Of a DNA stretch of 64,000 bases, positions 2,493-27,763 are shown piece by piece. The notes under the pieces are model-generated. The model worked only from the letters and a program-made list of their open reading frames with translations, was not told the DNA's origin and did not search any database. A program made the position numbers and the translations under genes. How positions within the stretch are numbered: the stretch's first letter is position 1; each line of letters opens with the position of its first letter. This DNA comes from Lunularia cruciata (Eukaryota; Streptophyta; Marchantiopsida; Lunulariales; Lunulariaceae): NCBI GenBank assembly GCA_948567375.1, contig OX419756.1:37710333-37774332 (forward strand), written 5' to 3'.

Positions 2493-2966
2493 CTAATCTT
2501 GAGAACTAGCTGATGAAGGTGCTAGTATTTCTGTAGCTGTACTAAGACTCTCTCCAAAATCCTTCACCAAAGTCTCCAAAAGTGCTTTTACTCCACTACA
2601 CTCATATCCTTTTGGAAGTCCTTCAACTCCACAAACCTCACACAACTCCTTGGTCTTAGATCTTCTCCCTCCCAATCTTGGTGAAGAAGGTCCAACATGC
2701 AAACCCAAGTCAAGTAAGCCTCTCCGTTCCCTCAATCTCTTGCTCTCAAAGGTCAATGGACATGAACTTGCCTTATGTCCCTTCTCTCCACATAGAAAGC
2801 ACTTAGACTCACTCTTTCCTCCAAGTGGTGTAGGTTTTTGGATCCTCTCAACATTCTCTTCAAATTCTATTGTAAACTCTGTTTTCCTAAAATCCACTCC
2901 TACAATCACCTCAAACCCTTGAGGAACCTTGAATAGTCTCAATTTCCACTCTTGATGACCCTCCAT
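2493..2966 (-). CDS. Element F extra zinc-knuckle reading frame upstream of gag (fossil)
   Basis: A minus-strand frame of 157 codons between the N-terminal frame and gag. It has a good CCHC knuckle, CFLCGEKGHKASSC, then a basic Arg-rich block (RLRERRG) and a second Cys pair (CEVCG). Its position 5' of the main gag block is unusual, because most Ty3/gypsy elements carry one knuckle region after the capsid. It could be a duplicated nucleocapsid or a captured zinc-finger exon. No homolog is recognised. Confidence 0.45.
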   Translation of the reverse strand: MEGHQEWKLRLFKVPQGFEVIVGVDFRKTEFTIEFEENVERIQKPTPLGGKSESKCFLCGEKGHKASSCPLTFESKRLRERRGLLDLGLHVGPSSPRLGGRRSKTKELCEVCGVEGLPKGYECSGVKALLETLVKDFGESLSTATEILAPSSASSQD

Positions 2967-3811
2967 GTTCCCAAGATGAATCTAAACACTCAAACATGCT
3001 TTTTGTTGCTCTCAAACTCCTCATGCATGAGATCTACACTTTGCAGAATTGACCCTTCTTCACAATGTCACTCTAATCTCCCAACCAGTATGTCATAGTC
3101 CTCTGAAAATTTTCACACTTGATAAAAACTTCAGAGCGTCTCTCCTTGCAAATTTCAGATCTTTTTGTGGAGCCATTTGGCCTAGACACCTTTCTATTCA
3201 GCACACATATTTCAGATTTGGTCTAAAAACCACCCCCTTCACTTTAAAAGCTCATGACTCCTTGTGCAAGAATGGTCTCTCTCTATTTCTTGTAGTAGCA
3301 AGTAGGATACAATGCACTTAATTTTCTTGAAAATTTTCAGGACAATTCATTGAAAATTGAAGAAATGGCAGACTCTGTGCAATTTTCGAGAGAGCATGCA
3401 GTTGCAGGAACACTTTACCCTATCAACTTTCAAAAATTCTAGCCCAGTGTGCATAGTAGCTCTCACAATAATTTCAAGTGTGATAATTGGAAGATAACCC
3501 AAGCTATCATGTGTAGAAATTTCAAGTCCAGATCTCAAACTTGAGATTTTGCCCAAAATCACCTTAATCCCCAAAATCTGCAATCCACCTCACACAATCT
3601 CTCCAATTCCTCTCATGTGTGTATAAGATGTACAAAATCACCTCAAAGACATCATAATGAACTACAGGGTATACAAATGGATCTTGGTTCTCTAACATAA
3701 GTTCAGCCCTCTCCTCTCCTAATGTTCTCTCCAAGTGAGCTCTCATAGCCTCCTTTTGCCTAATGTAGAATTGAACACGGAACATTACCTTGCCTTCTAG
3801 AGAGGTCCCGG
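2967..3811 (-). CDS. Element F leader and N-terminal frame (fossil)
   Basis: The region 3,564-3,842 is open on the minus strand and encodes a segment with KVMFRVQFYIRQKEAMR and a VYPVVHYD motif. A segment of similar arrangement (KVMYIQREQMRVSLVFHFG and ILPVVIYD) occurs at the same place, just after the primer site, in chromovirus E (53,279-53,500). So the two elements share an N-terminal gag extension. The last 31 bases of the open stretch belong to inserted element A. Nothing recognisable lies in 2,967-3,563. Confidence 0.4.
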
Positions 3812-3916
3812 TGTCATGCGTATATACATTGCTACACAACATACATTGTTGTCAACATCATACACTATAAAAGCACAACTCACACATAAGTCATACATAG
3901 ACTCTAAAGTGCCACA
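3812..3916 (-). repeat. Terminal unit Y, outer copy, element A
   Basis: A 105-bp unit that starts TGTCATGCGT on the plus strand and ends GTGCCACA. It recurs at 4,369-4,473 with 3 differences, and in element B at 27,206-27,310 and 27,764-27,868. On the element's own strand it runs TGTGGCAC...GACA, so it has TG...CA ends. Both copies in A share a variant (ATAAAAGCAC) where both copies in B read ATAGAAACAC. Confidence 0.85.
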
Positions 3917-3918
3917 AT

Positions 3919-4366
3919 AATCAGATTGCTTAACATTCTCAACTCGACTCAACTCAGATCAGTACTTGATCTGTCACTCTATAAACTGCCAACAACTGGG
4001 CACTGATTACAGTCAAGCCACACCCACTCAAGCATAGAGAATCCAGGTGACGCTTGCCGGCCTCTGTCCACCATAGCCAGGAACTCGAAGGCTCAACATC
4101 AGAGAAGTGAGCTCTCTGGAGCTCACTTCAAAACTATACCTCCTGGACTCGAGCTAGCCCTGAAACCCTAACGGTCCTGCTGACGGCACACTCAACGGTG
4201 CAAACGGTGCAAAGTGACGGTGGGCCCTACCGTGAAGTCAGTACCCCAAACACGAAATCTAACCGTCGGAAAGTAGTCCCTGAGAAACTACTAGAATAAC
4301 TCTAACTACCATCACTGGAACTCTAGTGTCCGAGCATCTAGATGCGGAACTACAAATGGCGTGACA
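3919..4366 (-). repeat. Terminal unit X, 3' copy, element A
   Basis: A unit of about 449 bp matching 12,988-13,438 (5' copy of A), both X units of B, and the split X of C. On the element strand it begins TGTCACGCC and ends CTGATTA. Inside are a TATA-like TTTATAGA and two short perfect hairpins (see 4,104-4,129). It is joined directly to the outer Y on one side and to the inner Y through a 2-nt GC spacer on the other. Confidence 0.85.
4104..4129. repeat. 11-bp perfect hairpin inside terminal unit X
   Basis: GAAGTGAGCTC, four loop bases, GAGCTCACTTC. The same arms with loop TCTG or TCTA occur in the X units of A and B; C has a decayed version near 16,650. A second hairpin, ACGGTGGG-C-CCCACCGT, is present in most X copies (for example 13,280-13,310). 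These are candidate RNA structures or protein-binding palindromes of the terminal repeat. Confidence 0.55.
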
Positions 4367-4368
4367 GC

Positions 4369-4473
4369 TGTCGTGCGTATATACATTGCTACACAACATA
4401 CATCGCTGTCAACATCATACACTATAAAAGCACAACTCACACATAAGTCATACATAGACTCTAAAGTGCCACA
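4369..4473 (-). repeat. Terminal unit Y, inner copy, element A
   Basis: A 105-bp unit 97% identical to the outer Y. It is followed on the plus strand by a C-rich run (TGCCCCCCTAGC), which on the element strand is a purine tract (AGGGGGGCA) immediately before Y. This is the expected place of the polypurine primer at the start of a 3' terminal repeat. Confidence 0.8.
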
Positions 4474-4490
4474 ATTGCCCCCCTAGCTGG
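4474..4490 (-). promoter_or_regulatory. Candidate polypurine tract, element A
   Basis: On the minus strand AGGGGGGCAAT precedes the TGTGGCAC start of the inner Y. Element B has AGGGGAGCGAT at the same place. Polypurine tracts prime plus-strand DNA synthesis in LTR retroelements. Position and composition fit, though the tract is short. Confidence 0.5.
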
Positions 4491-4642
4491 CGGTTAGGTC
4501 CCTCTAACTCCAGATAGCCATCTACTCTAAATATATGGTATACCCTCTAATGGGCAAAGATCAGGAGGCCGAGTGCTATGGAGCCCCTTTGTTAGTCGCC
4601 TGTCTGCAATCTATACCATATAAAGAATGAACTAGCTATAGG
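4491..4642 (-). other. Element A 3' untranslated stretch
   Basis: A stretch of about 150 bp between the PHD-finger reading frame and the candidate polypurine tract. It is closely matched at 27,880-28,037 in element B. No further motif was recognised. Confidence 0.5.
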
Positions 4643-5230
4643 TCAAGTACATCTAGGACATAACCACTGTCCCTGAGGAACCACCATGAGGGGAGGAGTC
4701 ATACATGCCATATGCCATCCTCTCGAACAGCTATCACACACTAACATAGTAGCAACTCCACCAAAAGAGCCACATAACATACACCTCAAGCCTGCACGTA
4801 CAAGTGCCAAGCTTGGGTCCATAGTACCATCAATGTTTGGGAGGTGGCATGGTGCACAATTGCACACATGATCCTTCCAAACAACACCATCACGTCCTTC
4901 TAACACAAGGACTCTAGATGGCAAAACCTCGTGCAATCTCAAGATAGTGCGGCCTGTAGAAACATCAAGTGTCATCGGTGCTGTCTGCTGTAGATATACA
5001 TAGTCGCGTGGATGAAATCGACAGATCGAGGGTCTATAACCTCCTCCTTGAATGGTAGCATAGCGTAAAGTATCTCTATGCTGAGCAATCGCCAAGTTCT
5101 CAAAAGCCATCGGCATCACTCTCCGAAAGATCTCTGCCTGCTGAGAACATGCGCTCATCCATACATTGGGGTCATCCAAGTCCAAAACTACAGTAGCATC
5201 TTGACGAATGGCTGCAGGTAAATCTGGATC
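4643..5230 (-). CDS. Element A integrase C-terminal part with PHD finger (fossil)
   Basis: The minus-strand frame begins with an integrase tail (DLDDPNVWMSACSQQ..., then FHPRDYVYLQQ and RTILRLHEVLPSRVLVLEGRDG, a GPY/F-like or SH3-like module). It ends in a Cys/His cluster: CMLCG ... CDSC..GWHMAC ... WLCPRC, at about 4,646-4,786. The spacing is C4-H-C3, the PHD finger pattern, and the Trp two residues before the final CPxC is the usual PHD residue. PHD fingers commonly read histone H3 tails. Here it takes the place that a chromodomain holds in chromoviruses, so a role in choosing integration sites is a reasonable inference. Copy B has the same finger at 28,041-28,180. Confidence 0.75.
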   Translation of the reverse strand, partial: DPDLPAAIRQDATVVLDLDDPNVWMSACSQQAEIFRRVMPMAFENLAIAQHRDTLRYATIQGGGYRPSICRFHPRDYVYLQQTAPMTLDVSTGRTILRLHEVLPSRVLVLEGRDGVVWKDHVCNCAPCHLPNIDGTMDPSLALVRAGLRCMLCGSFGGVATMLVCDSCSRGWHMACMTPPLMVVPQGQWLCPRCT

Positions 5231-6406
5231 TCATCCAAAGAGTAGAAAGTATGGAGAGAAGGATGCAAAGGAGGCTTGCCGGCTGAACCAATAGCCCATG
5301 GCCAACCAAGGTAACTGGAGATCCCAATCTCCCAAGTGGCCTCTTTGCAAACCATACTTTCTCAATCCTCTCTTCACCGTCTGAACCACTCTCTCTGCTA
5401 AGCCATCTGCCTCAAGGTGATCTCGGAATGTAGTACAATGATCAATCAAAGCCTTGTCACACAAGACCTAAAACTCTCCCAAGAACTTTGTACCTTGATC
5501 AGTCAAAACCTCAGTTGGTGCACCAAAATGACTAAGAACTCGATCCAAGAACGAGTAAGCTGTCCCTTCACTAGACTTGTCAGGAAGTGCCACCAACTCA
5601 ATCCACTTGGAGAAGTGCTCCACCATCACCAAAACATACCGATGATGTCTCACAGTCAGCGGTAAAGGCTTGGCGAAGTCCAAACTCCAACGGTAACCCA
5701 ATCCCATGATAGGTAATGGATGTAACTGTGGCGTAGGAGCATTGAATGATGCTCTAACTTGGTCACAAACCATACATCTTGCAACAAACTGCTGTACCTC
5801 GGTCTGCATACCGTGCCACCAATAATGACTCTGGAGTAAGCTATATGTACGCTTTACTCCAAAATCTCCTAGCTCCTCATGAGCATGATGGACCAATTGT
5901 GGTCTCTGTGATGGAAGTGGTACTACTCGCACTCTACCATCCTCCCATACACGCAAAAGGTGTCTACCCTCCAATCTGAACCGTTTGGCTCGCTGAAGAA
6001 TACAGCCTCTCTTCTTGGCCCCAACTGTGCCACCCACAACACCAGTGCAAAGATAGTCCATCACTAAGACATCATCATGAATGTCTCGCTGAACTTTACC
6101 AATATCTTCACTCTCTGGATCTGTGACCTCAATAACTCCTCCTGTATGTGCTAAGAGAGATACCACCAAAGTCTCTGCAAATATACACAGAAAGGCCGAT
6201 GCATGCCAACCTGGCACCATCTCCTCATCTGTCTCACCATGCCAACATGCTCCGGTCTGATCCTGCTGGCTGGGACATGGGTTTCTACTCAACCCATCTG
6301 CATCACGGTTCACCACTCCAGGTCTGTGAACAACCGTGAAATCATACTCCTGTAAAATCAGAGCCCATTGTGCAAGCTTCCTTGAAAGCTTGTCGGACTC
6401 CATCAA
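5231..6406 (-). CDS. Element A integrase core (fossil)
   Basis: Ty3/gypsy integrase. The N-terminal zinc-binding segment reads HAHEELGDFGVKRTY...SHYWW...CMVCDQVRA (HHCC). The catalytic core follows: WSLDFAKPLP with the first Asp, then VEHFSKWIELVAL and GAPTEVLTDQGTKFLGEF with the second Asp. The downstream part at 5,231-5,464 has WLAMGYWFSRQASFASFSPYFLLFG, the usual post-core segment. It catalyses insertion of element cDNA and is expected to leave a 4-6 bp duplication; the CCGG flank agrees. It is broken. Confidence 0.82.
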
Positions 6407-7708
6407 CCACTTCAGTAGCTAATGATCAGTGATGAGAGTGAAGGGGTTACCAAATAGGTAACATCGGAAATGTGCTACTGCCCAAACTGCTGCCAAGCAC
6501 TCTCCTTCATATGAACTATACTTTGCCTCCGCTGAATTGTTGGAGCGACTAGCATAGGCCACCACAAACTCCTTCTCCTCATCATCATGCTAGGTGAGCA
6601 CCGCTCCAAGCCCCAACATACTCCAATCAGTGTGAACCTGAAATGGTCATCCCTTGATCGGTCTCCTCAAAATAGGAGCAGATGTCAACCTCTCCTTGAG
6701 CTCTACAAAAGCTCTCTCCTGCTCATCTCCCCAACACCACTCTTGTGTAAGCTTGGTCAACTTTATCAAGGCCTTGGCAATGGCACTAAATCCTCTAACA
6801 TAGCTGCAATAGGAGTTTGCCAACCCAAGGAATGCTCGCACTCTCCTCACATCCGTAGGCCGAGGAATATGTGCAATAGCCTCCACCTTGGTCTGCTGAA
6901 CACCAAGTCCTCCGGGGTAGATAGTGTGACCCAAATACTCAACCTGCTCATGGAAGAACCTACACTTCCCAGGATGTAATTTGAGTCCATGAGATCTCAA
7001 CCTCTCAAACACCTCCAACAACTGTCACTCATGCTCCTCCATAGTAGTGCTATAAACCAAAATGTCATCAATATAGCACCGAGCAAAATCCAATCCAGCT
7101 AGGATCCTATCCATGACCCTCAAGAACTCAGCGGGAGCATTCTTCAACCCAAATGGTAAGAACCTCCACTGATATAACACATCCTTGCCGTGAGGATCAA
7201 TAGCCCAAAATGTTGTCTTGGACTTATCTTCCTCCCTAATCCGCAACTGATGATATCCCGCTCGAAGATCCAAAGTACTGAAGATCTTTGCATGCCCAAT
7301 CGCATCAAAAATCTCCTCCGGTGTAGGCATGGCATACCGATCAGCCCTGGTCTGTCGGTTGATAGGACAGTTATCTCCACACATCCGCCTATCTGTATAG
7401 TTGCTATGCATATCCTTCTTGGCTGGCATCACTGTCGTTGATGCATACTCTCCATGTGAAATCTCCACCAAACCAGCCTCAAAAAGGTCAATACTCCGGC
7501 TCTGAATCAATGTCCTCTCCATCTCACTATATCGATAAGGACGTCGGAAAACTGGTGTGTCACTAGTCAGCTCAATCCGTATACCAGGTCCTTCAGAGCA
7601 CCCAAATCCTTCATATTGAAGGCAAAACAACTCGTGTGACTCCTCAAGAACCTCCAAACCCTCCGTCTTTCCTCTCCAGTAAGCTTGGGTCCAAGATCTG
7701 GCTCCCAA
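6407..7708 (-). CDS. Element A reverse transcriptase and RNase H (fossil)
   Basis: The reverse transcriptase at 7,025-7,708 shows FSTLDLRAGYHQLRI, FLPFGLKNAPAEF and the catalytic box YIDDILVYS. The thumb and connection follow at 6,647-7,021 (KCRFFHEQVEYLGHTI, then RAFLGLANSYCSYVRGFS). RNase H lies at about 6,380-6,640 and is clearer in copy B (29,760-29,960: YSSYKGECLAAVWAV..., TNHQPLKWLM). The motif set and the RT-RH-IN order place the element in Ty3/gypsy. It is broken by several interruptions. Confidence 0.85.
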
Positions 7709-8475
7709 GTATCCTCTGTAACTGTAGTAGGAGTGGAAGACGTACTGACTAGCTGCTACACTGGGCCCTTGGGAGCAATGGTGTCATGCTCCCGACCACT
7801 AGAGGTCCCAACCTCTGTGTGAAAAACTCCCTCCACTCTGGCTGCAAGCTCCATAAGTCCTCTGGCTGCATCCCATGTGGACCAAGGGTGTAATCCAAGT
7901 AGCCCACGCTCGCCTGGATGGACTCCAAGTAGACCACTCTCCCTAGTAGCTACTGGATGTGTCCCAAGAATACCATGTCCACTCGGTCCATCGCCCCCAG
8001 CATGTGCCTGAATCGTCTCAATAGGCACAGGGCTCACAAGTGTCCGAGTGGTGATGCCTATCAAGCGCATCCTATGTTGCTGTGCCAAACCAAGGCTCAC
8101 AATCCAGGTCAAACAGTTCAGGTCCATAGCCTGACCTAACACCTGACGCCTGGATGCCTCTGACACTGCTGGAACAGCGGTAATACCGGTGCGAAAACCC
8201 ATTGCCCGCTCTCTCTCATCAGCATTGGGCTCCACCAATTGCTGTAATTGTGAGTCCCAAACAAGTCCAAGTCCTCCCTCTCAAAAAGCATGAGAGCCTG
8301 GGAAACTCATGAGTGTAGGAAATGCAGCTCTAGGCTGTCCAACTAGGTTCACCACTGCCATAGGTGACCTATCAGCCACTACCATTGTCTGAGCCTGATG
8401 TCCAACATCCAAGATATCATCAACAAGAATGTGGTCTAGTCGCTGAATCCCATCATAACTACGTTGTAGAGAGGT
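7709..8475 (-). CDS. Element A linker with short GLLGxHP repeats (fossil)
   Basis: Lies between the methyltransferase and reverse transcriptase. The frame at 7,756-8,238 has no family I recognise, but contains three imperfect repeats around GILGTHP, GLLGVHPGE and GLLGLHP. Copy B keeps the same repeats (31,265-31,594). It is probably a flexible or interaction linker of the polyprotein. Confidence 0.5.
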
Positions 8476-9160
8476 TTAGGGTTTAGGGGGGTTCGTCCAC
8501 CAAAGACGAAGACGATGAGCCCGTGATCCCACTCTGGCTGCATCTAACAATACAGCAGGTCCTATCCAAGAATGGACCTGATGTGTACTCGCCACCACTC
8601 TAGTGCGAGAATCACCCATCAATGGAACGTTCTCCAAAAGGTAAGCTGGAGAAACAGACTGATGAACCTGGAGATGTTGTAGTATCCATAACATCTCCCA
8701 AAACACACCAGAACGAGGATCCTGAAGACCCAAACCGCGGCCCGCACGTGTATGTCCCTAACATGGCCATCCACAAATCACCAAGTGAACAGGCCCATGT
8801 CTCTCTAGGTCATGCGCCCCCAGTAAGGAAATGTCTCCTGGTAAGGCCTTTTGGTAACCTCTGACTACTGACATTGGTAATAACTCCGGTACCGATAGGC
8901 CAAGTGTGCCACATGATGTAGAGAGACTTGCCTAGCAGTCTCATCTCTCTCTACATACAAGTACCTCTGTACTCGGATACCCGCATGTAACACCATAGCT
9001 AGTTTGGTGCTGATCCCACCAAACAACTCCAATAGGCATATCCCCTCTACTGGATATTGCCAAGCAATGAGTGTGGTATCCAGAGGTGTCAAAGCAATCG
9101 CCTCTGGAGGCTCATCCTCACACTCATCCCTTGATGGTACGAAGGCTCCACTCCAAGCCT
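8476..9160 (-). CDS. Element A cytosine-5 DNA methyltransferase domain, DNMT3-like (fossil)
   Basis: Minus-strand segments carry the ordered motifs of C5-cytosine methyltransferases. Motif I is LLELFGGIST near 9,010-9,050 (S-adenosylmethionine binding, cf. LFDGIATG in DNMT3), followed by VQRYLYVERDETARQVSLHHV (motif II, with the acidic residue). The motif IV region (GWPC) is near 8,765. Then QDPRSGVFWEML and the motif VI core YLLENVPLMGD (Glu-Asn-Val at about 8,626-8,634), then DAARVGSRAHRLRLWWTN, which resembles the DNMT3 segment VSAAHRARYFWGN. Order and spacing fit DNMT3/DRM better than DNMT1 or CMT; the order I-to-VIII is not permuted as in DRM. No separate ADD domain is seen. It is broken; copy B (31,834-32,460) is clearer. 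Confidence 0.78.
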
Positions 9161-9960
9161 GCTGCACCAACTGATCTGCATGCTGCTGCAATGCCTCCTC
9201 TGAACTCCACAATGGAACATCCAAGGTGGATGGAACAATCCCAAGTGGATGGAACAATCCCACTCGTACTCCATAGCCGAGTGATCTCCTCTGGTACTGG
9301 AGTATCCTCTGCATGGGCGTTCCCCTCCAACAAGTCACCAGGCCAAGTAACTGCACCGCTGAAAGCCAAAACTGATGCTGCCATGGTCCCGGACTGTACT
9401 GAGCCAAGACTGCCACTACTGAAACGTACTGGTAGGCGACATACCCGTCCCTCACCAGACTGCCAACCAGGTCTATAAGAGGCTGTCTCCTCCCAATAGT
9501 CAATGCTGAAACCCATAGGGTATAACACTGCTCCTCCAACTAGCACATCATATGACTCAGCTATCGTCGCAATAGCCTGAGCTCTCACCACCGAGCTATC
9601 AGTCGGATGACCAGGCTGAACTTGGACAACAAGCTCCCCACGTGTGATGTACTATGTCAAACCACCACCTAGAGATGTCTGGATCTGAAATGGACACCTC
9701 TCTACATCGGTCTTCCATAACTCCAGACCAACAACTGCAGCCTTCCCCAACATAAGGGGCTGCGCACCAGAGTCTAACAAGACTTTATGTGGTGTATAGA
9801 CCTTCCCTAAAGGTCCCACTAAACGAAAGATCCCCCTCTGGTTATCCAATAGGACAACACCAGGTGTAAACCGCGCTCTCTCAAAGGCCGGTCTAGCTGG
9901 CAACTCCTCTAGTCTAGCCGTTGCTGCCTGCCACAACCCACTGGTTGCTGAACGGATCCC
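9161..9960 (-). CDS. Element A protease region and spacer to the methyltransferase (fossil)
   Basis: The region 9,700-9,900 encodes KVLLDSGAQPLMLG, a retropepsin active-site loop (xLLDSGAxxxx). The region 9,500-9,560 encodes SYDVLVGGAVLYPMGFSIDYW, the counterpart of the (Y)DxLLGxDxL segment. A block of about 300 bp of unassigned sequence then leads into the methyltransferase motifs without a spacer that looks non-coding, so the two were probably one polyprotein. Confidence 0.68.
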
Positions 9961-11893
9961 ATGCTCCTCAACCAAGTCAGATCCACTACCAACCACCTCT
10001 GCTCTAGTAGTAGGAACTACACCATCCCTACTCTCACACAATGTGGCAGCCAACCGGAACATTGGAGCTGGGTCAACTCCCAATGTAAACATGTCACTGG
10101 CTAAAAACAAAGGATGCCGCATAATCAGCTGAGCCGCCCCCAACATCATGCTAGACTCAGTCTGTGTAGTAGCAGGTGGCTGACTAGCAGGTAGTCCATC
10201 ATGTACTCCATCACCACCTACCACACCTGCACTGGGACGTCTAGGAACCATGGATGTCGTCTGCAATGCCTCAGATAGCGTGAAAGACTGGGGAAGTCTG
10301 ACCTGTCTCCCAACCTCTCCTCTTTGTGGGTCCAACTCCCTTGATGCTCCTCTAGGCTCTGGAGCACGTATTGCACTCTTAGTCACTGTTGCAGATGCAT
10401 CCACCTGTGTTGCTCCGCACATGAAGTCCAAAGCATCTCTATCACCCGCATATGAGGTGGAAGCCCCAGCACCCGAATCTGATCTCCTCTGAGCAATAGC
10501 CATACTAGCCAATCTCTGCTCCAACTACTCAATCCGAGTAGCCATAGTTGTGTCAGAAGTAAGGGTAGGTACTGCACCCCTACTAGGTGTAGATCCTCGA
10601 CCACCACCTCTACCACCTCGTCCTCCATGAACTGGAGCTCCTCTACTACATGCCATAGCAGCCCTCCCACTCCATAACTCCGGGTGTAGGTCAAAATACC
10701 GGTCACTAGTGTGACCAAATCTGTGGTTGTGCTCACACTGCCTCTGTGCTGGCTGTGATGCACCAGAGGTATCAGGTCCGCTGCCCTGAGTACACTCTCT
10801 CCTATGGTGAGGTCCACCACAAGTCCAACAAGCAACACCACCACTCACTGGCTGCTGCTGACCCGAAAATGAGGGTAAGGGTCTAACTCCACTAGGCTCT
10901 CCACTCGCTCCATAGGATCTGGGCTGTCCACCCTGTCCTCAAAAACCAATTGGGCGTGGTGCACTTTGTTGCACTCTAGCAGAAGTCACAGCGGTGGATG
11001 AGGTCTCCCTACCAAATCCAGATGTCACCACTCTCTCCTCCACCATGTTGAGCTCAATACGCTCAGCCAAACCAAAGACTACTGCCAAAGTGGGCAAAGT
11101 AGCCTGCAACAACGTAGCATCACAAACTCTACGTCGCAACTCCCTGTCCAGTATCCCATACCAAAACTGGACTGCCTAGGCCTAAGTAACTCCCTGAGTG
11201 AAACTGATCAGCCGCCTCATGCGAGTGTATGCCTCGCGTAGGCTCTCTCCAGCCTTCCGCTGGAACTCCTGCAAGCTCCTCAGCTTGTCAGTCCGCACTC
11301 CCTGGTAGTTCTGCCTCAAACATAGGAAGAACTCAACCATGGGGTTAAACCCCACTACATGCCAATGTTACCACATGATAGCTTGGGTACCACACCACCT
11401 CCTGAGCGGTACCTCCACTCGTAGTAGCACTATCTCCAGCTAGTGCACCTCCACTAGCTCCACCAACACTACTCGAGCTAGAACTCGTAGGTACAACCGA
11501 TCTACTCCTGACCACCGAGCCTGAAGTGATGGAGACATAGTGTGGAGACCAATACTGTCTCCATAACTCAATCTCCTCCAAATGAGCTCTCCTGAACTCA
11601 TGGTAGTCATCCATCGGGGGATCCTCCAAGTGCTGAAACAACCCCTTCCATGCCATGAAGGGTGTGAACAAAGTCGGGTTCCGCATCTACTGCAGATCAC
11701 ACCAACTGTCAAACTCTTGGATGAAGGCATCTAACTCAATGGTACCCATTGTACCAGAGTAACGCCTAGGGCCTTTGGAGGCCCTATAAATCTCGTCCAT
11801 GTCCCACAACAACGGTGCTGGCACACCAAGTGCACTCTCAACTGAATCAGCTCCTGTGTTGAACTCCAACTTAGAGTCAATCTCCTCCCTCAC
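9961..11893 (-). CDS. Element A gag with two zinc knuckles (fossil)
   Basis: The capsid-like part lies at 11,000-11,893: AWKGLFQHLEDPPMDDYHEFRRAHLEEIELWRQYW, then, as in copy B, a gag core with FQRKAGESLREVYTRMRRLI. It is followed at about 10,690-10,850 by CWTCGGPHHRREC and a second knuckle ending HTSDRYFDLHPEL. The second knuckle resembles the plant copia nucleocapsid signature GHTxDxCFxLH, odd in a Ty3-like element. A Ser/Ala-rich acidic stretch separates the knuckles from the protease. It is broken. Confidence 0.68.
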
Positions 11894-12987
11894 TGGGACC
11901 TAAGATACAGGCTGATACCGAGCACCACTCTGAGTAAACCCACTGCATCCTGCAAGGCTAACTCCTCTAGAATCTCCAAAGAACTCCGTCGTGACCACGT
12001 AACCACACCAACAAACCCGAACCACCAACTGCAACCGCAAGTCGTAACTGCAAGTACCCCACCAAGTGCCAACACCACCACATGCCAACACCAACTAAAC
12101 ACCACCCACTAATGTAACTCTACCGAGATAACTACACTAAGGGAAGGGCAACCTGTAACCTGCCATCATAACACGCACTCTCACGGTCTGCAAGTCATCA
12201 CTTCCTACCTCACCGGAGAGAAACAAAGGTAGTCTGACTGGTCATCACTCTAGCCTCACCACCGAGAGCACACCAGAGCACCAACACTCAAAAGTGAGGG
12301 CACCTCACACAAACGTGGTGCACAAACAAGAAGCAGAGAATGGAGGGGATCCAATCACAAGAAATCTAAACAAAAACCCTCCATCTCATAACACAACACG
12401 GGACTGACTCTGCCACCATTTGGCATTTGACATAAGAGTAGTTTGTATCTAAGTCCTAAGCTACCAGGATCACCAAGAATGGGATCAAACTGCCTCTCCT
12501 AGCCAAAGCTACATGTGTATAGATAACAGTGGCACAGTCACTATGACAACAAGTGAGGGTGGACCAGTTGGCTAGGGCACCAGTCTAGGAACAAGAGATC
12601 TAGGGGTCAAACCCTATTGCGCACAATCTAGCAAGAAAGGCAGATTTTGCCAACCAATGACCAAGATCTACACTAAACTAGCTAGCCTCACGCCAGCAAG
12701 CTGGCTTGCTGGCCCTTCTAGCCCTTCTAGGCCTTCGTAGCCTCTCATAGCCCACAGCCCTATGCCTCAAAGCCTCTCATAGCCCTATGCCTCAAAGCCC
12801 TATGCCTCAAAGCCTCTCAAAGCCCACAGCCCTATGCCTCAAAGCCAAATTTGCATCAACTACACGAGCTTCTGCACACTAGGGAAACACAGAATCTGAA
12901 TCGAGCTACCACGATCCACCGAGCTTGGAGATACCACCAACACTCAACGTTCCTGCACCCGATTTCCCCCTGACTTCACTTCTCTGA
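11894..12987 (-). other. Element A 5' leader
   Basis: About 1.1 kb of untranslated sequence between unit X and gag. It has no long open frame on the element strand. Next to X the element strand reads CATCAGAGAAGTG, which shares ATCAGAG with the initiator-Met primer site TGGTATCAGAGC but is otherwise poor, so the primer is unresolved. It contains the short tandem array at 12,712-12,850. Confidence 0.5.
12712..12850. repeat. Short tandem repeats in the element A leader
   Basis: Repeated words AGCCCTATGCCTCAAAGC, TCTCATAGCC and CCTTCTAG-GCC, in about six to eight imperfect copies. C and B leaders have only one or two copies at the same place (15,855-15,895; 36,050-36,095), so the array expanded in A. 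Confidence 0.65.
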
Positions 12988-13438
12988 TGTAATCAGATTG
13001 CTTAACATTCTCAACTCGACTCAACTCATATCAGTACTTGATCTGTCACTCTATAAACTGCCAACAACTGGGCACTGATTACAGTCAAGCCACACCCACT
13101 CAAGCATACAGAATCCAGGTGACGCTCGTCGGCCTCTGTCCACCATACCCAGGAACTCGAAGGCTCAACATCAGAGAAGTGAGCTCTCTAGAGCTCACTT
13201 CGAAACTATACCCCCTGGACTTGAGCTAGCCCTGAAACCCTAACGGTCCCGCTGATGGCACACTTGACGGTGCAAACGGTGCAAAGTGACGGTGGGCCCC
13301 ACCGTGAAGTCAGTACCCCAAACACAAAATCTAACCGTCGGAAAGTAGTCCCTAAGAAACTGCTAGAATAACTATAACTGCCATAACTAGAACTCCAATG
13401 TTTGAGCATCTAGATGCGGAACTACAAATGGTGTGACA
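12988..13438 (-). repeat. Terminal unit X, 5' copy, element A
   Basis: A 451-bp unit with TGTCAC...GATTACA ends on the element strand, about 94% identical to the 3' X at 3,919-4,366. No Y unit lies outside it: the sequence goes straight into the CCGG duplication and element F. It would supply the promoter for the element. Confidence 0.85.
13050..13058 (-). promoter_or_regulatory. TATA-like box in the 5' X unit of element A
   Basis: The minus strand reads GTTTATAGAG about 65 bp before the internal edge of X. The same box is present in every X copy, including C (about 16,522). If used, transcripts start in the last 30-40 bp of X, so the repeated RNA end (R) would be the tail of X. Confidence 0.4.
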
Positions 13439-14146
13439 CCGGCAACAGAACCAAAAATATGAGCGGCATGTCTCTCACTCAGGATGAACCTCTGATGGCC
13501 ATTATGGTAGTGCACCATGGACTAAGAAGGCAAGGAACCCCAACTCCATCATACTCCTCCAAGGCTAACACTCCAAGACTCAAGACATTACTCACTAGAG
13601 AACTCAATGAGAGAGAGATAGTTTCAAATGAAAGGATGATGAGTACCTCCTCACCCCTTGTTTATATACTTGTGAAATAGTTACAAACCAAAGTTACTAA
13701 TTACCGCAGTAACTCAAGTTACTAGACTAAAAGTCAAGTAAAGTCAAAACGTAGAAAGGAATATCCATTCACATGGGCATATTCCACTAGCATATGATCT
13801 TATCTTGAGCCAACCACAAGTCAAGGATTCCTTCACATGGGCTATCCTTGGACTAAAGAAGAATCCAAAACAAAAGGGCTTGCGGGCCCAAGAGTTCTCA
13901 ACTCTTTCCTCAAAGCCAAACACCTAGGAATAATACCAAGTCAACACACTAGAATCCAAAATAGTGGTGCTCATCTTTTCCACTTCCTCTAAAGTAAGGT
14001 CCCTTCTATCTTAGCTATGACTAAATTTAGCTAATCATGACTAATGTAGAACTATCCTTTATCTCTATATAAATAATATCTCTCAAGTACCTATAATACC
14101 AAGCTAAATATCACAATACCACACACATGCACAAATGGGTGTTACA
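13439..14146 (-). repeat. Element F leader and probable 5' LTR
   Basis: Continuation of element F across the insertion of A. On the minus strand the outer end reads TGTAACACCC, the commonest start of plant LTRs, and lies exactly where element C sequence begins (14,147). A strong TATA box (TATATAAAC, minus strand, 13,660-13,669) fits an LTR promoter. The inner edge is probably near 13,505, where TGG...CCA ends meet TGGCCATCAGAGG (about 13,488-13,500), a degraded initiator-Met primer site. The left LTR of F is outside the window, so length and age cannot be checked. Confidence 0.55.
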
Positions 14147-14177
14147 ATCCTCAAAAACCAATTAGGCATGGTGCACT

Positions 14178-15120
14178 CTACTGCACTCTAGAAGAAGTCA
14201 TAGCTGTCGATGAGGTCTCCCTACCAAATCCTGATGTCACACACTCTCCTCTCCACCATGTTGAGCTCAATACGGTCAGCCAAACCAAAGACCACTGCCA
14301 AAGTAGGCAAAGTAGCCTGTAACAATGTAGCATCACAAACTCTACGTCGCAACTCCTTGTCTGGTATCCCATACTAAAATTGGACTACCTTGGCCTCAGT
14401 TATGCCTTGTATGAAACTAATCAGTTGCCTCATGCGAGTGTATGCTCCATGTAGGCTCTCTCCAGCCTTTTGTTGGAACTCTTGCAAGCTCCTCACCTTG
14501 TCAGTCTGCACTCCTTGGTAGTTCTGCCACAAACACTAGAAGAACTCCACCATGGGGTTAAACCCCAATACCACACCACCTCTTGTAGTGGTACCTCCAC
14601 TTGTAGTAGCACTATCTCCAACTAGTCCACCTCCACTAGCTCCACCAACACTACTCAAGCTAGAACTCGTAGGTACAGCCAATCTACTCATGGCCACCGA
14701 GCCTAAAGTGATAGAGACATAGTTTGGAGACCAATATTGTCTCCATAAGTCAATCTCCTCCAAATGAGCTCTCTTGAACTAGTCATCCATCGGTGGACCC
14801 TCCAAGTGCTAAAACAATCCCTTCCATGCCATGAAGGGTGTAAAAAAAGTTGGGTTCTGCATCCACTGCAGATCACACCAACTATTGAACTCTTGGATGA
14901 AGTCATCCAACTCAATGGTACCCACTATACCAGAGTAAAGCCTATGGTCTTTGGATGCCCTATAAATCTTGTCCATGTCCCACAACAACGGTGTGGATAC
15001 ACCAAGTGCACTCTCAACTAAATGAACTCATGTGTCAAACTCCAACTCAAAGTCAATCTCCTCCATCACTGGGACATGGTATACAGGCTGATACCGAGTA
15101 CCACTCCAAGTAAACCCACT
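14178..15120 (-). CDS. Element C gag remnant (fossil)
   Basis: Minus-strand stretches parallel to A 10,940-11,930: a segment with the GRETSSTAMTSSRVQ tail, then the gag core and the SITLGSVAMSRLAVPTSSSLSSVGG Ser-rich stretch, then the capsid-like N-terminal part. The zinc knuckles and everything downstream lie beyond the junction with F and are not visible. Confidence 0.6.
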
Positions 15121-16461
15121 ATGTATTGCAGGGCTATCTCCTCTAGAAGTCCCAAAGAACTTTGTCATGACAAAGTAACCACAACTACAAAATGCAACCA
15201 CAAGTCACAACCGCAAGTTGCAAACCAAGTGCCAACACCAACTAAGCACCACCCACTAATGTAACTCTAACCAAGATAACTACACTAGGGGAAAGGGCCA
15301 CACGCACTCTCACGGTCTGCAAGTCATCACTTCTTGCCTCACCGGAGAGAAACAAAGGTAGTCTGACTATTCATCACTCCAGCCTCACTACCAAGAGCAC
15401 ACCAAAGCACCAATACTCAAAAGTCAGGGCACCTCACACAAACGTGGTGCACAAACAAGAAGTAAAGAATAGAGGGGGTCCAATCACAAGAAATCTAAAT
15501 GAAAACCCTCGATTTCATAAAACAACACGGGACTGACTTTGCCACCATTTGGCATTTGACATAAGAGAAGTTTGTATCTAAGTCCTAAGCTACCAGGATC
15601 ACCAAGAATGGGATCAAACTACCTTTCCTACCCAAAGCTACAAGTGTATAGATAACAATGGCATAGTCACTAGGACAACAAGTGAGGGTGGACCACTTGG
15701 CTAGGGCGCCAATCTAGGAACAAGAGATCTAGGGGTCAAACCCTGATGCGCACAATCTAGCAGGAAAGGCAAAATTTTGCCAACCAATGACCAAGATCTA
15801 CTCTAAACTAGCTAGCCTTATGCCAGCAAGCTAGCTTGCTGGCCCTTCTATGCCTTTGTAGCCTCTGATAGCCCACAGCCCTATGCCTCTAAATGCCAAA
15901 ATTCAGCCAAATGAGGCCTTTCTTCTTGCCACTTTGAACCTCCTCCAAAATTTGGCAAAACTCCTCCAAACTTGCAAAAGTCCTCCAAACTGGCAAAACT
16001 CCTCCAAATCTGGCCAAAATCTGACATAAAATCCAGCCAAAATTTGACAAAATTTGGTGGTCAGCCCTAAAGTTGGCTAACCACCAAATCCCCCGCTAAC
16101 TCTTCACTTGAGCCAAATTGAAAACACAAGTTCCTCCAAATCACAAATTCACAAGAATAGCTTCACAACTCCACCTTCAATTTTACTTTCTGAGCCCAAC
16201 TCGCAACAAATTGGTCCTACCTTCACCTTTTGAGCTCAAAATAACAACCACTACTTGAAATTTGCTCCTTTTGTGCTTGAAAATTGGCTAGTGCTTCCGC
16301 ACACCATTTGCCTTATTGCCAAATCTCCATCAAGCAACAAGCTTCTGCACACCAGGGAAAAACTAAACTTCAATTGAGCTACCAATGATCCACCGAGCTT
16401 GGACAAACCACCAACACTCAAAGTTCATGTACCCGATTTCCTCCTTATTTCACTTCTTTGA
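15121..16461 (-). other. Element C 5' leader
   Basis: Untranslated leader of about 1.3 kb, longer than A's. The part at 15,890-16,330 (rich in 'CTCCAAA' words and ending near CACCATTTGCC) is shared with B but missing from A. It contains no reading frame of interest. Confidence 0.55.
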
Positions 16462-16790
16462 TGTAATCAGATTGTTTACCACTCTCAACTCAACTCAGAT
16501 CAATACTTGATCTGTCAATCTATAAACTACCAACAATTGGGCACTAATTACAGTCAAGCCACACCCACTCTAGCTAAGAGAATCCAGGTGACGCTCGCCG
16601 GCCTCTATCCACCATGGCCAGGAACTCGAAGGTTCAACATCACAGAAGTGAGCTCTCTCGAGCTGCACTTTGAAAGTATACTCTTAGAAAGGTTAGGTCT
16701 GAAACCCTAATGGTCCCACTAACAGCACACTTGATGGTACAAATGGTGCAAATAGTGTAAAGTGATGGTGGATCCCACCATGAAGTTAGT
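16462..16790 (-). repeat. Terminal unit X of element C, inner part
   Basis: Matches A 12,988-13,316. It is interrupted by D1; the remaining outer 130 bp of X are at 20,589-20,718. Confidence 0.8.
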
Positions 16791-19700
16791 TGTGACAACC
16801 CAGAAAATATCACATTTGCGGTAATTGGGTAAGTAAAGTTTGTTCCTATAGAGATACGAGTCAGAAAGGTCCAAATACAAAGCAAAGTAATAATTTGAGT
16901 TCTTCTTGGTTTAGTCTTTAATCTCTTAGGTGGAAACCACACTTAGAAGAGTGTAACAAGCACTGATTCACAGTCTTGTCACAAATTAATAGTTCTTAAT
17001 CACAACTCCATCAAATCTTTCCAAACAATCTTGATTGTGATGATTCAGGCTATCTCAAAAATAGCACTTCATTGCAAAACAACTTTGCCTCAGAATTGTG
17101 TTCTACCCCTACACTCAAGGCACAACTTCCTCGATCAAAATTGCTTCACATCAACTTCTCGCTGCACTCACAAATGCGGAATACTACCAACACTACAATT
17201 CCTCTCAAATTTGTCAAGGCATTGCTTCAATTGCACTTCACTTAGGATCAAACACACAGAATGAAGATCAAGGCTGCGGAATCCATCATCCAATGAGCAC
17301 ACTAACTTGCACTTTGAATTTCTCCACACACTCACAAACACAAGCACAAAGTTGATACTCAAAATCAAGCTCAAGCAACAAGCACTACTTCATAGCACTT
17401 TGTTTTATCTATTCTCAAAAATTATGAGCACTGAACAACATATGACTATGAATGCCACTCTTAAATAGTGAAGCAAATGACAGTTACTAACAACTATACC
17501 GTTCTATAACAACTCTACTAACCTCTAGATCCGAAATGCCAATTCACCTCTTCATATCTACCTCTTCAAATCTCAAATATGTTACTAATCTGATCCGATG
17601 TCTACTTCTTCCTCGGCTTTCAAACCCAATCCCAAAGTAATTTCACTCACTACTACTCTATCCTCAGGTTTCACAACTATTAATTCCTCTACCAATTCTA
17701 ACAATTCTCTTTCCTGATCTGAAATTCCACTAGTGGGTAATCTATCTAACTCCTTATCTCCCGACCCACTCTTCTCTAATGTCTCCAATGGTAACTCCAA
17801 AGACATCTACACTTCTATGTTATCTACTTTGGGTTTTGCTCTGACATCCTTTTGAAGTTTATCTATCTCTATTTTTACTAAGTCTAATCTGATTGTGATA
17901 TTGTCTTCTACCTCCAATATCTTTCTATCTACACAAGTTCTTAGACTAATGAGTAAGGCATTCAAGTCTTTGTCCTTTGCATTTCTCCTCCTTGTCTCCT
18001 GCACCAACAACTTCAACTCGTGCAATCTCGTTTCTTCAATGCGCACGCTGGCCTCTGTACTTAGCATCGTATTCATCTTGATCACAATCTCCTTCAATGG
18101 CTCCAATCTCATTTTCCTCTCCCATTCTTGATCTGCAAGCCAATCTTCTCTATACATTGCCAATTCCGCTTCAAACTCGGCTTTCACAGCTTCCTTCTCC
18201 TCTTCTTTTTGCACAATCTTTTCCTCCTGATTGCAAAGTAACTCTCTCAACCTTTCTTCCTCTCTATATCTCATTGTCAACTCTCGTTGCCATAGTTGCT
18301 TCTTCTCCTCTACACTCTTCATCACCCTATCAAGCTCTTGCTCTTTCTCTGCTACTCTTGCCATAGCATGGATAATTTCTAATCTCAAATCAGCAAATTG
18401 TTGCTTCAAGATTTCATACTCAGTTACTTACCTTTCCCTTGCTATGACATTTTTCTGTACTACTACATCTACTCATAGTACTTCCCTTTCCTCCTCACCT
18501 CGGATTATATTCTTCTTTAATTCCAAGTTTTCTTCTTCTAATCTTGCTAACACAATCTCGCTAACACAATCTTCACCTCCAGACACTTCAACTGCATCCC
18601 TTCTTCTTGTGCTCTAACTTTACTAACAACGGCTACACGACCTCTCGTAGGTACTCTACTCCTTCACTCAGAGTTACCTTGACTTGCGGACTGATCTCCT
18701 TCTTCACCTCTTCCTCACTCGACACTCACCTTCTAAGCCGCAATTGCCTTATAGGAATGGATTCTTTGCTCCCCAAACTTCCATCCTCCTCTTCTCTTAC
18801 CTTACTCAGCCCCGCTCCCCACTTTGCCTTTTGTCTGGAACAAACTCCTCTTTGAATAGTAACTCTCTTCTCCTCTTACTCTAGAACTTCATATTCTAGT
18901 TTTGAGTTACTTCTCTCTTCTCCTCTTGCTCTAGAACTTCATCTTCTAGTTTTGAGTTACTTCTCTCTTCCATCTCTATCTTGGCTTCCTCTTCCTTGGG
19001 TACCGATGTCATCTCTCCTCCATCGTTGCTATCACTACTCGTGTCTCCACTCTGTAGTGTGAACTTGGGTTCTTCCTCTCTTTCTGAGCCATTGGACTTG
19101 CACTCGGCTTTGCCTTCCGATTCTTCTTCCGACAATGCAATTACTACCATTCCTTTCCTTGGGTTTACCCTTCTAGCCTTCCGAGGTCTTGCTTTCTTGA
19201 CTTCTTCTTCTTCTCCTTGTAGACTCCTCTTCTTTGACTTCAGAGTACTCACTTCCAACTGCACACTCTTCCCCATCTATGCATAGTACTCATCACTGCT
19301 CCTGATCTGAAGAATGTATTGTTGCTCCTCCGCGTCGACATCTCTTCTTAAGTCGGGATGGAAATGCGACACTATCCTATTGCGCTCTGCCACATTGAGC
19401 AAGTTCAGCCCCAGATAGAAATAGGCTGCAAACGGTACAATGTAATGTGGAGGTGACTTATCACACAAATTCCACACCATCTATCTTGTCCTCCCATGAA
19501 GACACTTTGCCCAGTTTATTGGCTCTCCTACAAACATCTTATGGAAGAACACCGCTTGGTGCTTCATTACATAAGTTGTTCTCTCCGGCTTCAAGATCAC
19601 CATTAGAGCACTCACGATCCCTCTCTTGATAGGATCCTTATAGCTCTCTACTTTGTAACCATTCTTTGTGCGCTTTGAAGAGAAGGCATCTCTCACTTCT

Positions 19701-20588
19701 TGGGCTTCTTTGGCTACTTCCATGTTCTCCAAGAACGTGGCACCATGCTCCGCGCTTGCTTCTCTTCCAAGTACTAACCTCCAATCCGACTCTGTCTAGC
19801 GAGCCGGATTACCTCTCTTCCCTTCTTCCTCAGGGCCATTAAGACACTTACTCTTGATGATCTCAGTCATGAACCTTGGAAAGCTAACATTCCAATTCCA
19901 TGCTAAGAATGTGATCCAAAGCCTGCTCAAGAGTTCAATTCTTACGATCATATCTAACCTCCGAATCGCATGATTTCTCACTGCAAATTTGGAATTCTTC
20001 TTCCCTCCTCCCATCTTTCTCCCTTCCACTCTGGGCTGGGGACTATTCTTCTTACTGATTCTTCGATTAACTCTCTCGATTTCTTCTTGACACACCAGCG
20101 CATCTTCGACTCTACTTCCCTTCCCATGATCTCTTGCAAGACAAATTCTTAATGGCGATGGAAAATTGCTTGTCATCGCTTTGTCTTTAGCTCAATTTTT
20201 ATAAAGTCGTGCCTTCTTTGTCTTTCTTCAATGCAAGTTTCTACCAACAAATCACACCTCCTGCATGCTCCTATCACTGTCAAGTGTCCTTCATGTGTAT
20301 GACCATTGTTTTTGAACGGTTCCTTCTTGAATGTCTCACCCTGAAGGAAAGTTGTTACACTGTCTACACCTTGGATTGAGCACCCCCAATACAAAGACTC
20401 CTTACTTCAAGTTGTAGGCTGATAGGGCAATTTTGAGTACCTCACCTTATGACCCAAAGCCACGTTACCTCGGGGTTCATCTTGAGGACACTTTTCTTGC
20501 CTTCTTTAGCCATACAAGCGCAATTCGACTTCTCTATACACTTCTTCTTCCAAATTTTAAAAAAAAAACCAAAAATGTGGGTACCACA
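16791..20588 (-). mobile_element. Element D1: TG...CA element with transposon-protein and coiled-coil frames (fossil)
   Basis: A 3.8-kb unit with plus-strand ends TGTGACAACC...GGGTACCACA. Flanks TTAGT (16,786-16,790) and TCAAT (20,589-20,593) are each one base from the uninterrupted TCAGT found in other X units, so this is a decayed 5-bp duplication. Coding on the minus strand spans about 17,585-20,176: an N-terminal region with VRNHAIRRLDMIVRIELLSRL, a middle with TTYVMKHQAVFFHKMF and PPHYIVPFAAYFYLGLNLL, and a long coiled coil. No polymerase or transposase was seen. Close to D2, D3 and D4. It has several breaks. Confidence 0.75.
17585..20176 (-). CDS. D1 protein region (fossil)
   Basis: Same layout as the better preserved D3 region (47,624-50,197). 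The first part has a basic N-terminus (KMGGGKKNSKFAVRNHAIRRLD), the middle has INWAKCLHGRTR and VWNLCDKSPPHYIVPF, and 17,807-18,409 is a 200-codon heptad-rich coiled coil (VMKSVEEKKQLWQRELTMRY...). Between them is an acidic, Ser-rich tract. I infer a gag-like or DNA-binding structural protein; the function is unknown. Confidence 0.5.
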
Positions 20589-20718
20589 TCAATACCCTGA
20601 ACACAAAATCTGACCGGCAGAAAGAAGTCTCTTAGAAACTGCTAAAATAACTCTAACTACTATCATTGGAACTCCAGTGTCCAAGCAATCTAGATGTGAC
20701 ACTACAAATGGCATGACA
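20589..20718 (-). repeat. Terminal unit X of element C, outer part
   Basis: Matches the outer 130 bp of the A and B X units and ends GGCATGACA at 20,718. The following TAAA would be the host side of the insertion; the matching left flank of C is outside the window. Confidence 0.75.
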
Positions 20719-21136
20719 TAAAAGCCATGTTTGGGACCAAAGCTAACATAAGTCTACCTACAATGGTAAGTTTAGGAGATTTTAATCCCACTTCAAGCAA
20801 GATTTGTGGCGAGGAAGAGGTCCATGAAGGTGCACAAGAGTGCTCATAATTCCCATCTCTTCAAGAAGTGGTGCTCCTTGACTCGGGCCCCCAATTGGTC
20901 ACAAACACCCAAGGGGTGGAAAGTTTACCAAGTGGCATGGACAATGGAATCCTATCACCCGCGGATGAGTCTCTATTTGTTCCACTGATCAAGACTCACC
21001 TTTCATTACACCACCACCTTTAACTTCTACAAGGGATGGATCTGAGGATGCTTTCATTGACCAAGAAGAGGAATGTGACCCAAAGAGGAGGAAAGGTGGA
21101 ATATAAGCAAGTAAGGTACACAAGTTGTCACCTAGC
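20719..21136 (+). pseudogene. Sequence H, part 1: unidentified plus-strand coding-like sequence
   Basis: Non-family sequence right of C. Plus-strand frames include 20,806-20,988 (basic, HNSHLFKKWCSL...PKGWKVYQVAWTM) and a following stretch with TPPPLTSTRDGSEDAFIDQEEECDPKRRKGG, a Pro/acidic region ending in a basic cluster like a nuclear localisation signal. The same body resumes at 24,917 and 38,934 after insertions of D2 and D4. It looks like a nuclear DNA-binding protein, possibly the Myb-like partner frame of a DNA transposon, but I do not recognise it. The frame is interrupted, and its left end is lost to C. Confidence 0.4.
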
Positions 21137-24916: not shown

Positions 24917-25136
24917 ATGTCATTGTTTCATGATTTAGCAAAAATTACAATGTTGAAGGCAGATACTATAGAATCCATGAAGAGGTTACAACCAGCTGAA
25001 CTAGAAGCCACCAACATGAGGAAAAGAGAAAAAAGTTGATGAGAATGGAAGCAAAGCGGGTTAGATTAGAGATAGAGAAGATGAAAATTGAAATTAAGAA
25101 AAAATTGAGTGCAGATAGAAAGAAAGCTAGGGCAAA
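24917..25136 (+). pseudogene. Sequence H, part 2
   Basis: Continues the plus-strand sequence H between D2 and D4. It encodes LFHDLAKITMLKADTIESMKRLQPAELEATNMRKREK and then a strongly charged helix, MRMEAKRVRLEIEKMKIEIKKKLSADRKKARANA. This is a typical C-terminal coiled coil of plant Myb/trihelix-like or transposon-associated nuclear proteins, but no specific family is recognised. Confidence 0.4.
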
Positions 25137-27205: not shown

Positions 27206-27310
27206 TGTCGTGTGTATATACATTGCTACACAACATACATCGCTGTCAACATCATACACTATAGAAACACAACTCACACATAAGTCATACATAGACTCTA
27301 AAGTGCCACA
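27206..27310 (-). repeat. Terminal unit Y, outer copy, element B
   Basis: 105 bp, two differences from the inner copy at 27,764-27,868. It is the left end of B and directly abuts the D4 sequence. Confidence 0.85.
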
Positions 27311-27312
27311 AT

Positions 27313-27761: not shown

Positions 27762-27763
27762 GA

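Follow-up and report, generated by a model that had tools for sequence, protein, structure and literature searches.

Ty3/gypsy-type retrotransposons with a DNMT3-class methyltransferase domain, a PHD finger and split end repeats in the liverwort Lunularia cruciata

The capture of C5-cytosine methyltransferases (MTases) by retroelements has been reported from a few algae and protists, as had been noted in the initial annotation of the locus described here. De Mendoza et al. 2018 (PMC5890265) reported a Dnmt3 domain in Pol of a Gypsy element of Klebsormidium nitens, KnitGypsy-Dnmt3, whose repeats are described as having a DIRS structure combined with Gypsy domain content; self-methylation of the cDNA was suggested by these authors. 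A second case in the same paper, SymbioDIRS-Dnmt3 of dinoflagellates, belongs to the DIRS class. DNMT3 in retrotransposons of streptophytes and dinoflagellates is also a subject of PMC12344493, and in PMC6338049 a loss of transposon-borne methylases in land plants is supposed. Gypsy-Dnmt3 elements with DIRS-like repeats are, hence, an already known kind (PMC5890265). Compared by description only, the element of L. cruciata shares with KnitGypsy-Dnmt3 the Dnmt3-class MTase in a Gypsy Pol, the DIRS-like repeats, the Gypsy domain content, the conserved catalytic residues and a streptophyte host. By contrast, the words "PHD" and "circular" are absent from the main text of PMC5890265, and no mention of a leaky stop, a palindrome, target-site duplications (TSDs) or bryophyte copies was found in its available text. 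SymbioDIRS-Dnmt3 resembles the liverwort element in the presence of Dnmt3 in Pol, in the A-coding-B-A-B arrangement of the repeats and in the coexistence of two domain orders, but has, according to PMC5890265, a separate ORF for a tyrosine recombinase, whereas the element studied here possesses a DDE integrase, a PHD finger and 4-bp TSDs. In the open-licence literature, no published record was found of the Gypsy-Dnmt3 family in liverworts or mosses, of a PHD finger behind the integrase or of two layouts in Gypsy-Dnmt3, of a leaky UAG between MTase and reverse transcriptase (RT), or of gypsy split repeats with TG...CA ends and 4-bp TSDs and an account of their integration.

The window, i.e. the whole stretch of 64,000 nucleotides that was analyzed, harbours a Ty3/gypsy-type retrotransposon in two decayed copies, A and B, both on the minus strand. 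Copy A occupies positions 3812-13438 (9627 bp, TG...CA ends) and copy B, which sits inside another repeat, positions 27206-37182 (9977 bp); they are 93.5% identical in an alignment of 8973 columns. Of a third related copy, C, the 5' part was detected at 14148-16790 (minus), its repeat A1 being interrupted by a 3.8-kb insertion and resuming at 20589-20718. Copies A and B both contain stops and frameshifts, and neither of them can make the MTase now. CpG depletion was about equal in the two copies (0.40 and 0.42) and in the window (0.43), i.e. not stronger in the copies, and a tRNA search of the window was negative. The sequence interrupting A1 of copy C is one of four copies of a 3.8-kb repeat (16787-20588, 21133-24911, 46829-50611, and 25136-27205 plus 37183-38934), which are about 73-85% alike over aligned pieces and contain a long ORF of coiled-coil appearance (47624-49525, minus; 633 aa). 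The last of the four is inverted and split by copy B, for which it is the host. Two direct repeats of 750 bp (44008-44756 and 53639-54387; 93.7% alike, 9.6 kb between them) probably represent LTRs that belong to a different element, with an ORF for a gypsy-like RT (50615-51376, minus) in the interval. Gag-like ORFs at 1128-2090 and 2493-2981 (minus), with a zinc knuckle in two, apparently stem from other retroelements.

In three minus frames of copy A, the domains were read in the order Gag zinc knuckles, protease, MTase, RT, RNase H, integrase and PHD finger. The initial annotation had placed the MTase motifs between protease and RT, at 8476-9160. Their place was borne out on the minus strand of copy A but the extent given was too short, as the motif IX/X region ERERAMGF...RRQVLGQAMDLNCLTW extends the domain from 8476 to about 8083, so that it spans approximately 8083-9098 (motifs I, II, IV, VI, VIII and IX/X). 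It is broken by in-frame stops and by one frameshift near 8890: motif I (LLELFGGIS, at about 9035) stands in a frame of its own, and motifs IV (GWPC, followed by a stop), VI (LLENV) and VIII (SRAHRLRLWWTN) were read in another frame past the frameshift. In copy B (31475-32490, minus), motifs I to VIII share a single frame interrupted by in-frame stops, the frame changing late in the domain; here the PCQ of motif IV is intact and the arginines of motif VIII are altered (AHCLCLWWTN).

That the domain is a C5-cytosine methyltransferase inside a Ty3/gypsy-like polyprotein, as annotated initially, was confirmed by profile searches. Motifs IV-VIII of copy A, with X at one stop, matched Pfam DNA_methylase at 7.9e-06 (25.9 bits, cutoff 22), while the motif I piece alone gave no MTase match; with PF00145, the copy A read yielded 5.1e-05 (above the cutoff) and that of copy B 0.0024 (below it). 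When the whole copy A domain, with X at stops, was compared to the PDB by phmmer, the best 29 of 44 matches were all DNMT3A/B/C (top 1.3e-09), and the first match to another enzyme was HaeIII at 0.069. In the sequence searches, DNMT3 was the nearest class to the MTase, ahead of DRM, DNMT1/CMT, DNMT2 and bacterial enzymes. The motif order I-IV-VI-VIII-IX/X is canonical and colinear with DNMT3A, including a C-terminal stretch of 34 residues that is weak by itself. A DRM identity was rejected since motif I precedes IV, VI, VIII and IX/X, which means that the order is not circularly permuted; the best DRM match covers only positions 12-138 of the profile. Judged from its sequence, the domain is a DNMT3-class C5 cytosine methyltransferase, far above chance. 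Unlike vertebrate DNMT3A and DNMT3B, it is embedded in a retroelement and is not accompanied by PWWP or ADD domains in the scanned pieces; the reader domain is instead the PHD finger behind the integrase.

The remaining domains of copy A agree with the protease-RT-RNase H-integrase order of Ty3/gypsy elements, which is present in full in the relatives P0263 and L029. Gag zinc knuckles were recognized by eye at approximately 10740-10827 and the protease active-site segment VLLDSGAQPLMLGK at approximately 9700-9777 by homology to the protease of P0263; the active site itself reads LLDSGAQPLMLGK in the minus frames. The window pieces themselves gave no Pfam match for the protease, that of P0263 did. 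An open stretch at 7028-7783 comprises most of the RT, 5471-6418 the weakly matching end of RNase H, the integrase zinc-binding domain and the DDE core, and 4649-4783 the PHD finger (all minus). For separate pieces, Pfam yielded 2.1e-17 (RVT_1), 1.3e-15 (Integrase_H2C2), 4e-10 (rve) and 1e-09 (PHD, PF00628); the RT was recognized through Pfam RVT_1 and RT_RNaseH. The predicted structure of the integrase-PHD region was poor (mean pLDDT 63.9, pTM 0.33), so no fold is claimed for the PHD finger. Chromoviruses are Ty3/gypsy elements with a chromodomain behind the integrase. The element described here is similar to them in possessing a chromatin-reader domain at the integrase C-terminus but differs in its nature, a PHD finger, no chromodomain match being detectable at E<=1 in the piece with the PHD finger.

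An ordinary pair of identical full LTRs around the body was found in neither of the two complete copies. In element orientation, both consist of A1, the body, a G-rich tract, B1, two bases, A2 and B2, which corresponds to the split direct repeats (A-body-B-A-B) of DIRS/PAT-type elements. In copy A (minus), A1 is located at 12990-13438 (449 bp, beginning with TGTCAC and ending with CTGATTA), B1 at 4369-4474 (106 bp, TTGTGGCAC...ACGACA), A2 at 3918-4366 (449 bp) and B2 at 3812-3917 (106 bp, ending with ATGACA). The G-rich tract CTAGGGGGGCAA (4475-4486), a candidate polypurine tract, directly precedes B1. Between B1 and A2, the dinucleotide GC (4367-4368) forms the centre of the palindrome CACGACA-GC-TGTCACG, which spans 16 nt and whose two central bases are flanked exactly by the integrated ends of both copies (TGTCAC... 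and ...GACA, i.e. TG...CA). For copy B (minus), the corresponding repeats are A1 at 36733-37182 (450 bp), B1 at 27764-27869 (106 bp), A2 at 27312-27761 and B2 at 27206-27311; its palindrome contains two changes. Full split repeats were seen only in these two related copies. After A1, a weak primer-site candidate was detected, scored against a tRNA-iMet complement (8/12 in A and B; 7/12 elsewhere in C).

Both copies are bordered by 4-bp TSDs which, together with the TG...CA ends, correspond to Ty3/gypsy elements (4-6 bp). The duplication CCGG of copy A is identical on both sides (13439-13442 on the 5' side and 3808-3811, minus); that of copy B (minus) reads GCAT at 37183-37186 and ACAT at 27202-27205, with one mismatch between the sides. 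The repeat targeted by copy B has three related unoccupied copies. Two of these (22715-23009 and 48422-48700; 75-76% identical) fall a net 4 nt short of the joined flanks, the gap coinciding exactly with GCAT in one case. In the third (around 18450), a longer stretch is missing at this point and the 4-nt difference is not seen.

An intact relative was found on CADCWO010000201.1 (L029), a contig of 9285 bp filed under an uncultured Synechococcales (cyanobacterial) MAG. Its ORF1 encodes Gag, protease and MTase, its ORF2 RT, RNase H, integrase and PHD finger, and both are intact. Pfam detected DNA_methylase (6.8e-12), RVT_1, RNase H, the zinc and core domains of the integrase and PHD (4.3e-10), the protease being weak and below the cutoff; the MTase is, in the best segment, 50% identical to P0001. 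Because of these ORF domains and the lack of a recombinase, L029 is regarded as a retroelement. Its source was presumably a eukaryote in the sample. A further member of the family, P0023, is filed under an Obscuribacterales MAG, and both are probably algal retroelements that were binned into bacterial MAGs. Among the five genome-contig loci retrieved, the element was found only in L029, the other four being Streptomyces records. At the ends of L029, 127 nt are exactly repeated, closing the contig to a circle of 9158 bp, which may be a real circle or a loop of the assembly graph. The combination B-GC-A occurs once: a G-rich tract (6936-6946), laid out as in copy A, is followed after about 100 nt by CACGACAGCTGTCACG at 7048-7063. 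When the noncoding stretch of copy A, 789 nt long, is compared with that of L029, which comprises 1965 nt, this 16-mer is the longest word in common, and it is located just where integrated copies start and end. The exact palindrome was also found in eight other contigs, none of which contained any of six P0263 domains at E<=1e-3; as relatives they were rejected and the matches taken as chance.

Homologs of the MTase are numerous in the protein database (181 proteins at E<=1e-3, best 3.7e-152). Among the 120 listed, the source organism is named for 14, of which 13 are liverworts or mosses (Calypogeia fissa, Marchantia polymorpha, Marchantia paleacea, Riccia sorocarpa, Sphagnum troendelagicum and Sphagnum tenellum) and one is the Obscuribacterales MAG. 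The integrase-end plus PHD piece gave 277 matches, of which the 120 listed include eight from Marchantia polymorpha (69-81% identity) and five from Calypogeia. Two integrase-PHD pieces (P0215 and P0229) are named "cbb3-type cytochrome oxidase cytochrome c subunit", which is clearly a misannotation. When long proteins were allowed, a search yielded 45 matches, the named ones including Marchantia, Sphagnum fallax and, as a weak match, Closterium sp. NIES-53; no row named Klebsormidium was present among these 45 or the 120 listed MTase homologs. By comparison with P0263, 42 of the 45 contain another element domain, while P0242, P0253 and P0286 contain only the MTase. Searches of viral contigs revealed no relatives with P0277. 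A further search retrieved 28 loci; compared with six domains of P0263 at E<=1e-5, 20 of them matched the MTase and none RT, RNase H, integrase or PHD, and they were therefore taken for phage-type enzymes and set aside. Three stretches fitted a pattern search, none of them a relative.

Two layouts of the polyprotein coexist in the family. The first, protease-MTase-RT-RNase H-integrase-PHD, is whole in P0263 and partial in others; the second, RT-RNase H-MTase-integrase-PHD, is complete in 17 proteins (P0265, P0267-P0278, P0280-P0282 and P0284) and lacks the end in P0279 and P0285. In an MTase tree of 53 sequences (60 rows less eight broken or partial ones, plus a single, long-branched DNMT3A row as outgroup and without plant DNMT3 sequences), the 35 labelled rows are parted by layout on one branch with a support of 100/99; P0242 owes its assignment to the first layout to its kin alone, and many first-layout rows end before the RT. 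Copies A and B belong to a clade of 15 rows (100/100) together with Marchantia and Calypogeia. The same split appeared in an RT tree of 24 rows (100/99), the bootstrap of which was not fully settled, and MTase and RT distances were correlated among 21 proteins (Spearman 0.48; 0 of 999 permutations). In the alignment of 60 rows, the catalytic cysteine is present in 54 of the 55 rows with a letter at this position and EN in all 58; the MTase with its catalytic residues is kept down to 30-35% identity and in two positions of the polyprotein. In nine of 56 rows with a letter (P0263, P0264, P0086, P0265, P0269, P0270, P0271, P0274 and P0275), motif IV has glutamate instead of proline ahead of the catalytic cysteine, which is unusual for a C5 methyltransferase.

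Between MTase and RT, the window copies possess a stop codon in a particular context, TAG-CAG-CTA in copy A (7756-7758, minus) and TAG-CAG-CCA at the equivalent place of copy B (31150-31152, minus). In L029, a single TAG followed by CAATCA separates ORF1 from ORF2, which lie in one frame. All three stops fit UAG-CAR-YYA, the leaky stop context of tobacco mosaic virus. The copy B read contains 42 in-frame stops, among which this context is confined to the one between MTase and RT; it is also rare among the TAGs of the window (7 of 2072, both strands). Examination of 17 first-layout ORFs revealed that seven (P0244, P0245 and P0257-P0261) stop 88-132 residues past the LG..MD motif, as would be expected of ORF1; six, namely P0262-P0264 and three gene models of Marchantia (P0246, P0247 and P0250), continue into RT, and four (P0242, P0243, P0248 and P0252) were unreadable for the end position. 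With a stop of the leaky type at this place, the MTase would be synthesized together with Gag, and in this branch the enzyme is presumably produced in Gag-like amounts.

The oddly split end repeats suggest that the element entered the genome from a circular form of its DNA. On balance, we lean slightly towards a circle-integrating, self-methylating retrotransposon of the structure Gag-protease-DNMT3-type MTase-(leaky-type UAG)-RT-RNase H-integrase-PHD. The MTase, made at Gag level in ORF1, would be packaged with the RNA and RT. The terminal repeats of the cDNA, bounded by the G-rich tract and the putative primer site, would consist of B-NN-A, and the cDNA ends would be joined into a circle, by which the exact A2|B2 junction would be explained. 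If RT uses the G-rich tract and the primer site in this way, integrated copies correspond to a circle with two repeats that was opened within one of them, at CA-NN-TG. The packaged MTase might methylate the double-stranded circle, resulting in a resemblance to host chromatin or in a quiet insertion. The DDE integrase would then cut at CACGACA-GC-TGTCACG, leaving CA-OH ends like those of processed retroviruses, and the opened circle would be inserted with a 4-bp duplication, the PHD finger, of a kind that reads the H3 tail, possibly helping to choose the chromatin target. In foamy virus and HIV-1, a DDE integrase has been reported to cut an internal palindrome, giving processed ends (PMC1180852, PMC1905944). 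Their palindrome is, however, the LTR-LTR junction, while that of the liverwort element lies inside the reverse-transcribed repeat and its LTR-LTR junction is A2|B2. The broader proposal that a Ty3/gypsy branch abandoned linear, LTR-ended integration, its MTase methylating the circle and its integrase opening the palindrome inside the terminal repeat, in convergence with DIRS, is tentative, and we regard it with somewhat more doubt than confidence.

It is possible, though in our opinion rather doubtful, that the element follows an ordinary LTR cycle with linear cDNA and that its split repeats go back to one LTR rearrangement spread by template switching, without any circle. TG...CA ends, 4-bp TSDs and a DDE integrase are normal gypsy features, and the A1 and A2 repeats share their states copy-wise at eight sites, versus two and three in the other groupings, just as is expected of terminal repeats renewed at each transposition. 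Moreover, exact A2|B2 junctions in both copies fit template copying better than free end-joining, and clean runs of at least nine purines are absent from the 300 nt before B1 in A and B. On the other hand, the G-rich tract precedes B1 and not A2 in copies A, B and L029, so that the termini of a linear cDNA would differ from the integrated ones. The palindrome joining the end of B, GC and the start of A is, in addition, the very word that noncoding DNA of copy A and L029 share at greatest length.

A different matter, compatible with either model of integration, is the role of the enzyme. Many gypsy elements do without an MTase, and in the comparison of copies A and B, the MTase revealed no excess constraint relative to gag or protease (pN/pS 0.55 for MTase, 0.44 for Gag and 0.52 for protease), i.e. 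the three evolved similarly. The MTase might accordingly be a passenger or serve the host, slowing transposition or hitting host DNA accidentally, with the cDNA not being its target; a benefit from slower transposition is discussed in PMC5890265. We consider this unlikely in view of the retention of the catalytic residues at both polyprotein positions and of the correlated divergence of MTase and RT.

That the element is of the tyrosine-recombinase DIRS/PAT type, its integrase-like domain not being the mover, is highly improbable. The A-coding-B-A-B layout is called typical of DIRS in PMC5890265, where the repeats of the Klebsormidium Gypsy-Dnmt3 are included, and PMC12344493 places retrotransposon-embedded DNMT3 under "LTR Copia and DIRS". 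By contrast, a phage-integrase (tyrosine recombinase) domain was found in none of seven window pieces, 11 long ORFs and three L029 ORF pieces; a DDE integrase core with its zinc domain is present instead and recurs across the family. The window copies also show 4-bp TSDs and TG...CA ends; elements with a tyrosine recombinase, the DIRS/PAT type included, are not known to leave either. Finally, a host DNMT3 gene fragment in a repeat, or chance motifs, which the broken state of the window copies might suggest, is a negligible explanation, since the domain recurs at an identical position in two copies whose TSDs differ and occurs in L029 and in long ORFs of many sources, nearly always with another element domain.

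Retroelements carrying an MTase are not confined to one alga but present in liverworts and mosses, which speaks against the loss in land plants supposed in PMC6338049. The MTase and a histone reader have been retained over a wide range of divergence, and the question why an element carries a silencing enzyme of its host can be tested in Marchantia polymorpha. For retroviruses, it is usually assumed that circular DNA leads nowhere as a substrate of the integrase; with its split repeats, its palindrome and its 4-bp TSDs, the element offers a concrete case for such a step. If this is true, an integrase element would have converged on the circular cycle and the split repeats of DIRS, equipped with its own DNMT3 and a histone reader.
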